A stretch of DNA of 52,889 nucleotides, from assembly GCA_018711205.1 (NCBI GenBank), contig DVIO01000040.1, positions 1-52,889 on the forward strand, written 5' to 3'. The DNA is from Candidatus Avamphibacillus intestinigallinarum. GTDB lineage: Bacteria; Bacillota; Bacilli; Bacillales; Amphibacillaceae. This document shows positions 47,263 through 52,889 of this stretch, one piece after another. Below the pieces are notes generated by a model, which worked only from the letters and a program-made list of their open reading frames with translations, was not told the DNA's origin and did no database searches. Numbering within the stretch: position 1 is the first letter of the stretch; every line of letters begins with the position of its first letter. The position numbers and the translations under genes were made by a program.

Positions 47263-48627
47263 TTAACCAATAATGATTTTTTCCTTTGGATAATGGAAGT
47301 TGGCTTCACTACGTTCTTTTCTGAAGATAAAGAGAAAAGTAATGACCCCGACTCGTCCAACAAACATGAGGAACATTAAAATAATCTTACTCGTCATCGT
47401 TAATTCACTCGTTATGCCAAGGGACAAGCCTACAGTCCCGAATGCCGATGTCACATCAAATAAAATATCCATCATAGAAAATGGCTCAAGCACCATCATG
47501 ACGAGTGTGGAAATAAATACAAAAGCTAATGCTAAAAACATAACAGTTACAGCTTTTAATAAATCACTTTCATAAATTTCTCGGTTGAATAATCTCATAC
47601 TTCTTCCACCTCGTGCGTACGTGATGATAAAAATAATAACAAGCGCAAATGTTGTTGTTCTTATCCCACCACCAGCACTACTTGGAGAGGCACCTATAAA
47701 CATGAGAAAACTCATAAATAAATGATTCGGTTCCGTTAATTGACTAACATCCATCGTCGATAATCCAGCACTTCTAGTCGTTGTCGATTGGAATAACGCA
47801 TAAAATATAGACTCATGCCAGTTTTTATCAGCGAAGAAACTCATGGAATCCAATATATAAATCATAATGGCACCGATCAAAATTAACGCAAAAAAAGTGA
47901 TAGAGGTTAACTTTGTAAATAAGCTAAAGCGAAATAATTTACGTTCTGATTTTTTAGTAAAAATAAAGTTTTTCAATTCAATTAAAACTGGAAAACCAAT
48001 TGCTCCAAAAATAATTAATAGCATAATCACAAATTGCACAAAGTAATCATCTTTAAAGGGCGCCAAGGAAGATCCAGTTAAATCAAAGCCACCATTTGAA
48101 ATCGCACTTACTGTACTAAATAAGCCATTAAAATATGCCTCTTTTGCTGTAGGGAAATATTGTAAGTAATATGTCCCTAATACTAAAAAGCCAATGAATT
48201 CAATCGTTAAAAGCAACAAAATGATTTGTTCAATCAAGCGAACCATGCCTTCAAAGCTTGATTGATTTTGATCAGTCATAATCAGACGGCGTTCTTTAAG
48301 ACCGATTTTTTTTCCTAAAATTAAATAAACAAATGTACTAATCGCCATAATTCCTACAGCGCCTAATTGTAAAATAATCATCAATATGACGATACCTGTT
48401 GTACTTAACGTGTCAGCAATTGAAATGGTTGACAGACCAGTTACACTTAATGCACTCACTGCAGTAAAAGCACTGTCAATAAAAGGAACCTCAACCCCGT
48501 CTTTGTATGCTACCGGTAACGAAAGAAATAGTGTTGATATGATAACTGTTACAAAATAATACATTAATAAAATTTGTACAGGTGATAATTTTTTCAAGAA
48601 ATGTACAATTGAACGTCTAACTTGCAT
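47263..48627 (-). CDS. ktrB: Ktr potassium uptake pore subunit (KtrB/KtrD type)
   Basis: A 454-residue TrkH/KtrB-type K+ channel-like transporter with four M1-P-M2 repeats. The filter glycines are in ALSVTGLSTI, AISNGGFDLTG, TTRSAGLSTMD and AFGTVGLSLG. GGGGGG precedes the ATG. It works with a cytosolic RCK ring, for which KtrC at 40602-41270 is the obvious partner. Whether it is KtrB or KtrD in the B. subtilis sense cannot be decided from one sequence. Confidence 0.93.
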   Translation of the reverse strand: MQVRRSIVHFLKKLSPVQILLMYYFVTVIISTLFLSLPVAYKDGVEVPFIDSAFTAVSALSVTGLSTISIADTLSTTGIVILMIILQLGAVGIMAISTFVYLILGKKIGLKERRLIMTDQNQSSFEGMVRLIEQIILLLLTIEFIGFLVLGTYYLQYFPTAKEAYFNGLFSTVSAISNGGFDLTGSSLAPFKDDYFVQFVIMLLIIFGAIGFPVLIELKNFIFTKKSERKLFRFSLFTKLTSITFFALILIGAIMIYILDSMSFFADKNWHESIFYALFQSTTTRSAGLSTMDVSQLTEPNHLFMSFLMFIGASPSSAGGGIRTTTFALVIIFIITYARGGRSMRLFNREIYESDLLKAVTVMFLALAFVFISTLVMMVLEPFSMMDILFDVTSAFGTVGLSLGITSELTMTSKIILMFLMFVGRVGVITFLFIFRKERSEANFHYPKEKIIIG

Positions 48628-48725: not shown

Positions 48726-49136
48726 TTACACCATTGTTTTAAATTTTTCTAGTAATTGTTCCCCTGAATACCCATCATGAATCAATTCTGTTAATACTTT
48801 TTCAATTTTTGTCTTTTGCTCATCAATGATTGTCCCCATCAAAATCACATTCATCTCTTCTTCTAGAGCATTAACAGCAATGACGTCCGTAATTAAGGTA
48901 GCAGGTTCATTCGTTTCTTTAGTAATTTTAACTTGAACGATGATTTCTTCATTTGTTTCTTTTAGTTCGTTAAAAAAATCCATATATTTCTTATCAATAT
49001 ATGCTTCAATAACCCAACGATTATCTTCATCTTCCCGATTAATAATTAATCCATCAATTAACGGGATGACATAATCGACAATCTCTTCTGATTGATTCAA
49101 CATAATGTTAAAGAATTTTAATTTAAATGTTTTCAT
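48726..49136 (-). CDS. ywpF: YwpF-like family protein
   Basis: A 136-residue acidic protein with the YwpF-like signature IPLIDGLIINREDEDNRWVI near residue 25 and a C-terminal helix ending in LLEKFKTMV. GAGGGCG precedes the ATG. It follows moaA by 17 bases in the same direction; the association with moa genes also occurs in staphylococci. Function is unknown; the name YwpF comes from B. subtilis. Confidence 0.82.
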   Translation of the reverse strand: MKTFKLKFFNIMLNQSEEIVDYVIPLIDGLIINREDEDNRWVIEAYIDKKYMDFFNELKETNEEIIVQVKITKETNEPATLITDVIAVNALEEEMNVILMGTIIDEQKTKIEKVLTELIHDGYSGEQLLEKFKTMV

Positions 49137-49153: not shown

Positions 49154-50176
49154 TTACCCACCAATATATGACATTTCAATTTTCTTACGTTTATTCGGTT
49201 TTAACTCGCTACGTTCGTCTGAATAACGATCAGTTCTTTTGGACCAAAGATTTGTTAATGTGTCTTCTAATTGTTCAGTTGTTAAACCTGATCGCATTCT
49301 ATCGCGAATATTAAATCCACTTGAAGCAAATAGACATGTATATAATTTGCCATCAGCCGACAGACGAATACGAGTACATGTACTACAAAATGAATCCGTT
49401 ACAGAAGATATGACACCTACTTCTCCGACACCATCTTTATATCGGAAGCGTGACGCAACTTCTCCGTAGTAATTGGCTTCTGCTGGCTCAATTGGCATTT
49501 CTTCATGAATCATGTCGGCAATTTCTTTTTTAGAGACGACATTACTCATATCCCATCCATTATGATTACCAACATCCATAAATTCAATAAATCTTAAGAT
49601 GACATCTTTATCTTTAAAATATTTTGCCATTGGGATAATTTGACTCTCATTCATCCCTTTTTTAACAACCATATTTACCTTAACTTTAAGACCTGCTTCA
49701 AGTGCAGCATTGATTCCATTTAAAACTGGTTTTACAACGACACCTCTACCATTGATTTCTTTAAATACATCATCAGAAATCGCATCTAAACTAATGTTCA
49801 CACGTTGTAAACCCGCTTCTTTTAATTCCTTAGCGCGTTTTACTAATAGTATACCATTTGTCGTTAAAGCAATATCTTCAATACCTTTAATATTGGTTAA
49901 CGATTCAATAAGTTGACCCAAATCTTTTCGTAATAATGGTTCTCCACCTGTAATTCTTAATTTAGTAACGCCTAAATTAGCAAATGCAGTTGAGATATTT
50001 ACAATTTCATCAAAAGACATTAATTCACTTTCAGGTAAAAATGGATAATCCTTCCCAAAAATTTCTTTAGGCATGCAATACGTACAACGTAAGTTACAGC
50101 GGTCAATGACTGAAATTCGTAAATCTTGTAATGCTCTGCCAAATTTATCCTTAACTACAGAACGATTTGCATCCAT
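49154..50176 (-). CDS. moaA: GTP 3',8-cyclase MoaA
   Basis: A 340-residue radical-SAM enzyme that catalyses the first step of molybdopterin synthesis from GTP. The radical-SAM cluster motif is [11 protein letters not shown] (Cys27, Cys31, Cys34), and the C-terminal second cluster is in [19 protein letters not shown]. The end ...IEMSYIGG has the conserved Gly-Gly tail. The ATG at 50176 is chosen because AAAGG is well spaced from it. It lies just after moeA; other moa and mob genes are not in the window. Confidence 0.96.
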
Positions 50177-50196
50177 ATTTATCATCCTTTGCCATA

Positions 50197-51456
50197 TTAA
50201 AACTCTGTTGCACCTTGAATGTGATCAGTCAATATAATATTGACAAAATCGCCTTTTTGATATCCTTCAGAACCTCCAGGTAATTCAATAAAACAAGTGG
50301 AATGTGCGAGTGATGTTACCACGTTTGATTTATCCTGACCTGCTAAATAAACTTCTAAGCCATTTGAACCAAACCGATAATAGCCTCGTACAAAACGTGT
50401 GAATGAACTAGGCTTTGGAAAGTCATCCATAAGTTGAGCTTTTGTTCTTTGTAAAAATGGCGTTTTGTTATGCAAAGCCGTTTGGATGACAGGACGTACA
50501 TATAGTTCAAAGCCAACATAACACGCCGAAGGATTCCCAGACAATCCAAAGAGTAAAGTCTCATCTTTTACCGCAACACTTGTAACACTACCTGGTCGCT
50601 GAGCAATTTTATTAAAAAGCAGTTTTGCATTTAATTTTTTATAAATATCTGGAATCAAATCAAAGTCTCCGACCGAGACACCACCAGTGGTAATTAAGAT
50701 ATCAACCTCATCTAAGATGTTTTTTACTTTTTGATAACTTTCTTCTAAAACATCAGGAAGCTTGCCGTAATATTTATATTCAGCACCTGCTCGTTCAATT
50801 TGAGAACAAACCATATAACCATTTGAATTACGAATTTTTCCCTTTTCAAGCGGTTCATCTATTTCTAATAATTCTGTCCCTGTTGCAAGTACACCGACGA
50901 TCGGCTGCTTACTCACCATCACTTTACGATATCCAAACGTTGCCAGTACAGCTTTTACCCCTGGCGTAATGAGTGAGCCTTCAGAAACAACTTCCTCACC
51001 TTCTTGTACTTCAGAGCCCTTTTTCATCACATTGTGATCTTTTGGTATTGGTGCATAAATCTCCATAAAAGCCTGACCTTGTGATTCAAACATTCCAGTT
51101 TGTTCGAACATGATGATACAGTCAGCTCCCTCAGGTAGCTCTGCTCCAGTCATAATTCGTATCGCTTCAAATGGAGCCAACTGTTTTTTCGATAATTCCC
51201 CTGCTCCAATCGTTTCCAATACTTTGAATTTTATTGGATTTTCGCTTGAAGCTTCAACTGTATCGACTGATCTTAATGCGAACCCATCGTAGGGTGATTT
51301 ATGAAACGAAGGCACATCATTAGTAGCCATAATAGGTGCTGCAAGTCTTCTACCATCACATACATGGAAGTCAATTTCTTCACGTTTTCCTAAAGAGGCA
51401 AATTGCATTACACGACTTACAGCTTCCTTTACTTCAATTGGTTTACGAATGTCCAA
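50197..51456 (-). CDS. moeA: Molybdopterin molybdenumtransferase MoeA
   Basis: A 419-residue enzyme that inserts molybdenum into molybdopterin-AMP. Signatures are [27 protein letters not shown], the nucleotide-binding [11 protein letters not shown] and [16 protein letters not shown], and [19 protein letters not shown]. It starts at a TTG at 51456 with GAGGT just upstream. It is followed by moaA 20 bases on. This implies the cell makes a molybdenum enzyme, such as a nitrate reductase, elsewhere. Confidence 0.95.
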
Positions 51457-51582: not shown

Positions 51583-51611
51583 GTATATTTTAAAACATTT
51601 GATCCAAGCTA
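51583..51611 (+). promoter_or_regulatory. Possible sigma-G/sigma-F-like promoter for the spoVA genes
   Basis: GTATA at 51583-51587, a 17-base spacer and CAAGCTA at 51605-51611 resemble the sigma-G pattern (GHATR, then CATNHTA) with one mismatch in the -10 box. It lies about 80 bases before the lipoprotein gene. No good housekeeping promoter is obvious there. Tentative. Confidence 0.35.
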
Positions 51612-51690: not shown

Positions 51691-52122
51691 TTGAAGGTTT
51701 TAAAATATCCGTTTCTACTTACAGGATTACTTATTATGCTGATTGCTTGTAATGATTCCAATGATGAGGCATCAGTACGAGACAATCACTCAATCGATCA
51801 ATATCCCGCAAAAAATACTGAACAACTACTCAAAGACCATAAGGAAGTTACGAAGGCTCACGCGGTAAATTCAAATGATTATCTTGTTGCTGCTTTTGAT
51901 GTGAAGCAAAGACATAAATGGAATTTAGAAAAAAGAAAGAAACAGTACAAAAAACAATTAAAAAAGGAATTTCCTAATCACACGATTCTCTTATCGACAG
52001 ACCAAAAGCTAATCCACGAATTAAATAAATTAAACAATCAACTCAATAAAGGAGAACTTTCCAAAAATGAAATCAAACATCATATTAAAAGATTAAAGAC
52101 ATTACATGATAAAAAAACATAA
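51691..52122 (+). CDS. YhcN/YlaJ-like sporulation lipoprotein
   Basis: A 143-residue exported lipoprotein with a signal peptide ending in lipobox LIAC (Cys20) and a polar Lys-rich domain. VNSNDYLVAAFDVKQRHKWN resembles the core of YhcN/YlaJ proteins. It starts at a TTG with GAAGGTG six bases upstream. It stands directly before spoVAC, an arrangement recalled from spoVA-2mob-type operons, where a YhcN/YlaJ lipoprotein precedes SpoVAC and SpoVAD. The lipoprotein call is firm; the family call is moderate. Confidence 0.7.
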   Translation: MKVLKYPFLLTGLLIMLIACNDSNDEASVRDNHSIDQYPAKNTEQLLKDHKEVTKAHAVNSNDYLVAAFDVKQRHKWNLEKRKKQYKKQLKKEFPNHTILLSTDQKLIHELNKLNNQLNKGELSKNEIKHHIKRLKTLHDKKT

Positions 52123-52139
52123 AGCGAGGAATGATAAAC

Positions 52140-52604
52140 ATGGTACAACATGTCCAAACAAAAGATGCTTATCAAGATGTCCAACAAAAACATGAAATCA
52201 AACGACCTGTTGTTAAAAACTGTATAAAGGCATTTTTAATTGGTGGACTGATTTGTCTCATCGGACAAATCATTACGACATTTTATATTTATTTCTTTGA
52301 TTTCACTGAATATACTGCCGGGAATCCAACCGTAGCAACACTCATATTTATCACAATGCTGTTAACCGGTTTTGGCTTATATGAAAAGATCGCTCAATTT
52401 TCAGGAGCCGGCACCGCTGTTCCAGTAACTGGTTTTGGAAATGCGGTAATCTCTTCAGCCATCGAACATCGTTCTGAAGGCTTTGTTCTGGGAGTTGGAA
52501 GCAACATGCTGAAACTGGCTGGTCCTGTCATTGTTTACGGTGTATTTGCAGCTTTTGTCATTGCCATTATAAAAACCATTATTTTAACCATAGGAGGTAT
52601 ATAA
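52140..52604 (+). CDS. spoVAC: Stage V sporulation protein AC
   Basis: A 154-residue membrane protein with three to four membrane segments, matching SpoVAC: AFLIGGLICLIGQIITTFYI, AGTAVPVTGFGNAVISSAIE and SNMLKLAGPVIVYGVFAAF. SpoVAC is a mechanosensitive channel component that moves dipicolinic acid into the forespore and out at germination. The second ATG (52140) is preferred because GAGGA is nine bases before it. It is 17 bases after the lipoprotein gene and touches spoVAD. Confidence 0.93.
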   Translation: MVQHVQTKDAYQDVQQKHEIKRPVVKNCIKAFLIGGLICLIGQIITTFYIYFFDFTEYTAGNPTVATLIFITMLLTGFGLYEKIAQFSGAGTAVPVTGFGNAVISSAIEHRSEGFVLGVGSNMLKLAGPVIVYGVFAAFVIAIIKTIILTIGGI

Positions 52605-52889
52605 ATGAATCCAAAACAAAGTACTTGGATATTTGAACATAAACCATATATTGTCGCTGCAAGTACAGTTGGCGGTCCCTTGGAAGCAGCCGGGCATATA
52701 AAAGATGATTTTGATCTGTTATATGATGACATGCGTTTAAATGAAGATTCTTTCGAAAAAGCGCAACAACGTATGTTAGAGGAAACTGCTACTCATGCAA
52801 TTGTTAAAGCAAATTTAACAAACCAGGATATTGATTGTTTTATTGCCGGTGATCTCATTAACCAACTGACTCCAACGAATCAAGCTGCT
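52605..52889 (+). CDS. spoVAD: Stage V sporulation protein AD (cut by window edge)
   Basis: The first 95 codons of a thiolase-fold SpoVAD protein: WIFEHKPYIVAASTVGGPLE, the following DDFDLLYDDMRL and the FIAGDLINQLTPTN motif are clear. SpoVAD binds dipicolinic acid. It begins at the base after the spoVAC stop, with AGGAGG upstream, and runs off the right edge; the family is about 340 residues. spoVAE or related genes are expected next. Confidence 0.93.
   Translation, partial: MNPKQSTWIFEHKPYIVAASTVGGPLEAAGHIKDDFDLLYDDMRLNEDSFEKAQQRMLEETATHAIVKANLTNQDIDCFIAGDLINQLTPTNQAA

Follow-up and report, generated by a model that had tools for sequence, protein, structure and literature searches.

A SpoVA2-type operon, most likely the only DPA channel of its cell, in Candidatus Avamphibacillus intestinigallinarum

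The SpoVA2 (5A2) locus of Bacillus anthracis and the B. cereus group is one of two spoVA loci in B. anthracis, comprises seven genes and includes the lipoprotein SpoVANJ2 (PMC13059800). The C2 and Eb2 proteins of B. anthracis make up a membrane channel that D2 plugs from the core side, and in 2026 NJ was proposed to cap this C/D/Eb channel on the other side (PMC13059800). The channel fills spores with dipicolinic acid (DPA), a compound that protects them against heat. NJ is found in the C/D/Eb complex and is needed for DPA import; loss of NJ2 lowers that import, NJ2 is essential in a B. subtilis dependent on SpoVA2, and a mutation in Eb2 bypasses NJ2 (PMC13059800). The SpoVA1 and SpoVA2 proteins of B. 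anthracis are 53% identical on average (PMC13059800), and SpoVA2-type loci have already been noted outside the B. cereus group (PMC10126465; PMC13068155). A mobile form, spoVA2mob, is carried on Tn1546 in B. subtilis, B. licheniformis and B. amyloliquefaciens, with the order YhcN/YlaJ-spoVAC-spoVAD-(spoVAEb) and a sigma-G-like site ahead (PMC5133452). The chromosomal spoVA operon of B. subtilis reads spoVAA-AB-AC-AD-AEb-AEa-AF; in a survey, spoVAC, spoVAD and spoVAEb were universal and spoVAA and spoVAB less widely kept (PMC3533761). In B. subtilis, spoVAA and spoVAB mutants germinate prematurely, a defect that gerA loss suppresses (review PMC11841064), so that SpoVAA and SpoVAB need not belong to the channel.

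Here we describe a locus of this group from Candidatus Avamphibacillus intestinigallinarum, in a stretch of 52,889 nucleotides (the window) that makes up contig C59 exactly (52889 bp), the right edge of the window being the contig end, inside spoVAD. The source assembly has 181 contigs and 2.0 Mb, is 91% complete and has an estimated contamination of 0.94%. Three genes lie head to tail on the forward strand with spacings of 8 and 0 bases: a YhcN/YlaJ-family lipoprotein gene (NJ, 51691..52122), encoding the proposed extracytoplasmic channel cap; spoVAC of the SpoVA2 type (52131..52604), for membrane channel subunit C; and the first 95 codons of spoVAD (52605..52889), for the cytoplasmic plug subunit D. 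The lipoprotein gene starts with TTG, with the ribosome site AAGAAGGTG just 5' of the start, and its product carries the lipobox LIAC with Cys20; it scores 34.8 bits against Pfam Spore_YhcN_YlaJ (PF09580; cut-off 26.3, E 2e-8) and 21.5 against the narrower NCBI model TIGR02898, far under the cut-off of 99.75. SpoVAC matches the NCBIfam equivalog TIGR02838 at 209 bits (cut-off 164, E 2e-62), with an alternative ATG at 52140 that is better spaced from the ribosome site, and the 95 residues of SpoVAD match positions 2-92 of the 329 in PF07451 (E 2e-28), up to the open end. A first-pass annotation had named these genes from the letters, including the TTG start, and had proposed a comparison of the lipoprotein with YhcN/YlaJ profiles; the PF09580, TIGR02838 and PF07451 matches bear it out.

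The window NJ shares just 18-37% identity with other NJ proteins, and the lipobox Cys20, Asp104 and Lys106 are invariant in 59 relatives. A profile of NJ proteins from spoVA2-type loci, which includes the window protein as one row, finds that protein as its sole strong match in the genome (128 bits); a PF09580 search of the same genome missed it, which means that Pfam searches may overlook weak relatives. A confident AlphaFold2 model of the window NJ (pLDDT 87) is similar to the structure of YhcN from B. subtilis (7peg, TM 0.53/0.67). Foldseek returned no match to this model under E 0.001, and 7peg is prominent by coverage, TM-score and probability rather than by E-value; the resemblance supports the predicted NJ fold without proving it.

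A sigma-G-like promoter had also been placed ahead of the operon, and a site of that form does lie there on the forward strand (51583..51611; GTATA at 51583-51587, 17 bases, CAAGCTA at 51605-51611), 79 bases ahead of the TTG and with one mismatch to the consensus, which we take to be GHATR, 16-18 bases, CATNHTA. It agrees at 11 of 12 specified positions or, read literally, at 10 fixed or partly fixed positions with one mismatch and one free position, and shuffled sequence equals it in 23% of cases (p 0.23), so that the site is not significant alone. Across the 128 upstream regions of related operons, on the other hand, 18 perfect sites were observed where 0.6 were expected, and 42 with one mismatch where 19.3 were expected, mostly 20-60 bases ahead of the first gene. 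Because of this enrichment, we consider a sigma-G promoter likely for the operons of the family and plausible for that of the window.

For comparison, spoVAC, spoVAD, spoVAEb and their surroundings were collected from 61 genomes: the organism's own, 36 from the same family and 24 from other families of the order. The family is the Amphibacillaceae of GTDB, and its relatives here include Cerasibacillus terrae (Cerasibacillus being filed by NCBI under Bacillaceae), Amphibacillus sediminis, Paraliobacillus salinarum, Ornithinibacillus halophilus and Aquibacillus salsiterrae. Two kinds of locus were found, one with spoVAA-spoVAB ahead of spoVAC and behind sigF (17 loci), the other with a YhcN/YlaJ lipoprotein gene ahead of spoVAC and with frequent DUF1657 and 2Duf genes. 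Trees of C, D and Eb split the NJ-linked from the spoVAA-linked loci by a single branch (SH-aLRT 100, length 0.92). A tree on the window's own 251 columns gives the same split (support 100/100) and sets the window within a nine-row set of NJ-type rows (99/93), and the AU test does not reject its placement on the stem that leads to the spoVAA type (p 0.15); the tree alone is a good but not an absolute guide to type, and gene content and synteny concur with it. Where the chromosomal type has spoVAA and spoVAB directly ahead of spoVAC, the window has the lipoprotein gene. With tree, gene content and synteny in agreement, the locus is, on sequence grounds, a SpoVA2-type operon, akin to spoVA2mob and distinct from the chromosomal spoVAA-AF operon, as its layout had first suggested. 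The order of lipoprotein, spoVAC and spoVAD, followed in relatives by spoVAEb, is that of the B. anthracis SpoVA2 locus (PMC13059800).

With the chromosomal operon of B. subtilis the window operon has spoVAC and spoVAD in common, and the same part in DPA transport is expected of it. As in B. subtilis, spoVAA, spoVAB and spoVAF are still found behind sigF, contig C74 reading dacF-spoIIAA-spoIIAB-sigF-spoVAA (start) and contig C4 spoVAA (end)-spoVAB-spoVAF-lysA. In contrast to the B. subtilis operon, the core is of the other type, stands in another place with a lipoprotein gene and is gone from the sigF locus: spoVAC, spoVAD, spoVAEb and spoVAEa are all absent from that locus as read on C74 and C4. 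Nothing fits between spoVAB and spoVAF on C4: read at its longest, spoVAF overlaps spoVAB, and a GTG start with a good ribosome site leaves a spacer of ~20 bases. The assembly holds one match to the spoVAC/spoVAEb family and one to spoVAD, both in the window, and a second spoVAC or spoVAD was not found in its 91% of the genome. Because the four genes are missing from the sigF-spoVAA-spoVAB-spoVAF-lysA locus, the window operon is most likely the only DPA channel of the cell, and would be a housekeeping system rather than an add-on.

The same arrangement recurs through the family, where the SpoVA2 (lipoprotein) kind is the only channel core in 35 of 37 genomes, the organism's own included; the other two are G007, without any spoVA core, and G015, with the spoVAA kind only. 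Of the sigF loci of these genomes, 29 (own included) are readable through spoVAB-spoVAF; spoVAC, spoVAD and spoVAEb are missing from all 29, while spoVAEa is kept in 10 and gone in 19. No spoVAA was found in six further family genomes (G002, G008, G009, G030, G034 and G036). In other families the core is likewise gone from the sigF locus in eight genomes, with the exception that G045 keeps spoVAD there. G015 carries only a complete spoVAA-AF operon (L126), whose proteins cluster with their counterparts from two other families, either as an early branch or by later re-acquisition; G007 (2.5 Mb, 99% complete) gave no spoVAC/spoVAEb or spoVAA matches and is probably a non-sporulating member. We found no description of a hollowed spoVA1 locus, or of a family relying on SpoVA2 alone, in a literature search that covered papers outside subscription, which is no proof of novelty; the family-wide replacement by SpoVA2 is to us the most interesting aspect of the locus.

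That precisely spoVAC-spoVAD-spoVAEb are missing from the old locus could also be read as the mark of an ordinary spoVA1 core that a rearrangement moved away from spoVAA-AB to a place beside a chance YhcN gene. The sequences argue otherwise: window SpoVAC has a mean identity of 69.9% to the NJ type against 50.2% to the spoVAA type, and the tree places the window on the NJ side. Moreover, the two types were already distinct, since five genomes with both kinds of operon carry both types, with 50-68% identity between their two copies, much as the B. anthracis SpoVA2 proteins are about half identical to those of SpoVA1 (53% on average; PMC13059800). A moved spoVA1 core is therefore very unlikely, and a SpoVA2-type core remains the reading that we carry forward.

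The surroundings of the operon are those of its relatives. To its left, on the reverse strand, lie moeA (50197..51456; MoeA_N, MoCF_biosynth, MoeA_C), a divergent neighbour outside the operon, and three further synteny markers: moaA (49154..50185; Radical_SAM, Mob_synth_C), ywpF (48726..49136; PF14183) and a gene for a TrkH-type cation transporter (47263..48627; PF02386). An NJ-C-D-Eb operon is adjoined by moeA also in G005, G006, G012 and G024, with moaA at the same place in G005 and G024; ywpF is near the operon in Cerasibacillus, G001, G004, G014 and G025, and the TrkH-type transporter at the same place in Cerasibacillus and G025. Cerasibacillus terrae (L031/G010) and G012 share with the window trkH-ywpF or moeA as well as the hollowed spoVA1 locus, and show the four-gene form of the operon, spoVAEb following spoVAD at the same place in both and in G005. 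What comes next differs, being pepF in Cerasibacillus and gerA-gerB-gerC in G012, as predicted for the window.

In G012, moeA diverges from an intact NJ-C-D-Eb-gerA-gerB-gerC operon, behind which come three opposite-strand genes, from their appearance presumably a quinone-oxidoreductase-like gene, one for a small protein and a large formate-dehydrogenase-like gene. At its end, contig C71 of our assembly carries the second half of gerA, then complete gerB and gerC, and after them this same trio in unchanged order (61%, 42% and 78% identical to the genes of G012; gerA 63%). We predict from this synteny that C71 continues C59 across a gap of ~2.0 kb, as measured on G012, in which the remainder of spoVAD, all of spoVAEb and the beginning of gerA, about half of it, would lie. 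G005 has moaA-moeA and the same order as G012, but with a DUF421 gene between spoVAEb and gerA that G012 lacks. A continuation by way of pepF was also considered, but the assembly holds only a distant paralogue (23%, on C151), and it was the synteny with G012 that led to C71. A gerA(-gerB-gerC) germinant receptor operon directly behind a SpoVA2-type operon occurs in several genera (L117, L118, L123 and L131, in G005, G006, G012 and G020) and, by synteny, on our own C71 (L199). An assembly in 181 contigs with 0.94% estimated contamination might have taken in C59 as a foreign, misbinned contig; yet its gene order matches that of family relatives, its continuation is found on C71 of the same assembly and no other spoVAC is present there, and we give misbinning hardly any credence.

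The same data bear on the proposal, made at first reading, that the layout recalls spoVA2mob, a type that has been linked to high spore heat resistance and can be mobile. The gene order lipoprotein-spoVAC-spoVAD is indeed shared with spoVA2mob, which as an additional copy, gained by horizontal transfer on a Tn1546-like transposon, makes spores more heat-resistant (PMC5133452), and plasmid-borne SpoVA2-type copies exist, mostly in Priestia. However, neither the genes between 43.9 and 52.9 kb nor those of C71 close to the predicted join include a transposase, tnpA or res, and the neighbours moaA-moeA-ywpF-trkH are conserved in relatives. In spoVA2mob a DUF1657 gene leads the operon, and DUF1657 and 2Duf genes come after spoVAEb, a place that in our genome falls into the assembly gap. 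The 234 bases between moeA and the lipoprotein gene hold no leading DUF1657 ORF, and no 2Duf-sized DUF421 protein was seen elsewhere in the assembly, its two DUF421 proteins there being YetF-sized (232 and 211 aa, against 285-290 aa for 2Duf). Whereas spoVA2mob is an extra copy besides an intact spoVA1, a second spoVA operon, for which a search had been advised, was not found in this 91%-complete assembly, where the sole spoVAC-spoVAD seen coexists with a hollowed spoVA1. The presence of spoVAA and spoVAB elsewhere with no second copy had been named in advance as evidence against the proposal; it does tell against a second, mobile copy, while the SpoVA2 type stands, because the locus with spoVAA and spoVAB lacks spoVAC, spoVAD and spoVAEb. 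A mobile heat-resistance operon is thus not supported, and we regard it as extremely unlikely. In plasmid and phage searches, SpoVA2-type spoVAC turned up on plasmids of other genera, from which we draw no conclusion about the window; one match, at 71% identity in a 'Klebsiella grimontii' plasmid record (CP079755.1), is most likely a mislabelled or contaminated record.

Across these loci the lipoprotein gene goes together with spoVAEb, not with spoVAC. We compared 137 NJ-type loci outside the window, which are related by descent and include some from the same genome fetched twice. NJ stands beside spoVAC or spoVAEb in 127 of the 127 with spoVAEb, cases that are not independent owing to common descent; seven loci with spoVAC-spoVAD and no spoVAEb lack NJ, and in the remaining three, with NJ and no spoVAEb, the contig ends after spoVAD. 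G021 and G054 have a split operon, their spoVAC-spoVAD standing apart from an NJ-spoVAEb pair. This genomic link fits the bypass of NJ2 by a mutation in Eb2. Split operons of the form DUF1657-spoVAC-spoVAD-DUF1657(-2Duf), with no NJ or spoVAEb there, were seen at L132/L133 (G021), L177/L178 (G054), L115 (G003), L090, L094 and L103. NJ-spoVAC-spoVAEb without spoVAD occurs at L164/L234 (G045) and L167 (G047); G045 has spoVAD at the old locus (spoVAA-spoVAB-spoVAD-spoVAF) and G047 ~190 kb from spoVAC. L139 (G026:C2:473596-480596) is apparently what remains of a second DUF1657-spoVAC-spoVAD operon, its spoVAC interrupted by an in-frame stop and its spoVAD broken in two.

Our analysis suggests a model for the locus. 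We regard it as very probable that a compact SpoVA2-type operon, NJ-spoVAC-spoVAD-[spoVAEb], begins in the window, with gerA-gerB-gerC beyond the gap, and that this operon encodes a DPA channel, most likely the only one of the cell. By analogy with B. anthracis and B. subtilis, sigma-G would switch the operon on in the forespore; C and Eb would form the membrane channel, D would plug it from the core side and NJ would cap it from outside. DPA made in the mother cell would be imported across the inner spore membrane during sporulation, and released in germination once the germinant receptors fire. The species should make DPA, since dpaA, the gene for DPA synthase, is present in its genome. The remaining SpoVAA, SpoVAB and SpoVAF probably work with the SpoVA2 core from a distance, and the survival of spoVAA and spoVAB without their own core would agree with their not being parts of the channel. 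Unlike the B. anthracis SpoVA2 locus, the window operon apparently holds the sole core, starts without a DUF1657 gene and has, by synteny, gerA-gerB-gerC behind it; unlike spoVA2mob, it is off any transposon as far as seen, is not extra and lacks the front DUF1657 gene, and no 2Duf gene was seen.

On balance we favour, with some reserve, the broader reading that the family swapped its DPA channel core: the SpoVA1 core would have been lost from within its operon, a SpoVA2 core and the lipoprotein that caps it would have taken over at a different site, spoVAA, spoVAB and spoVAF would work with this foreign core, and in our organism the core would share its locus with a germinant receptor operon. 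The locus also cautions against taking a lipoprotein-spoVAC-spoVAD operon for a sign of mobile heat resistance; such an operon would be the ordinary channel of this family. Studies of SpoVA2 have so far dealt with bacteria that carry SpoVA1 as well, and there loss of NJ only lowers DPA in the native host. Natural SpoVA2-only organisms would offer a direct route to asking whether the cap is essential and, because SpoVAA, SpoVAB and SpoVAF have outlived their own core here, may also serve to test whether these three are separate from the channel.
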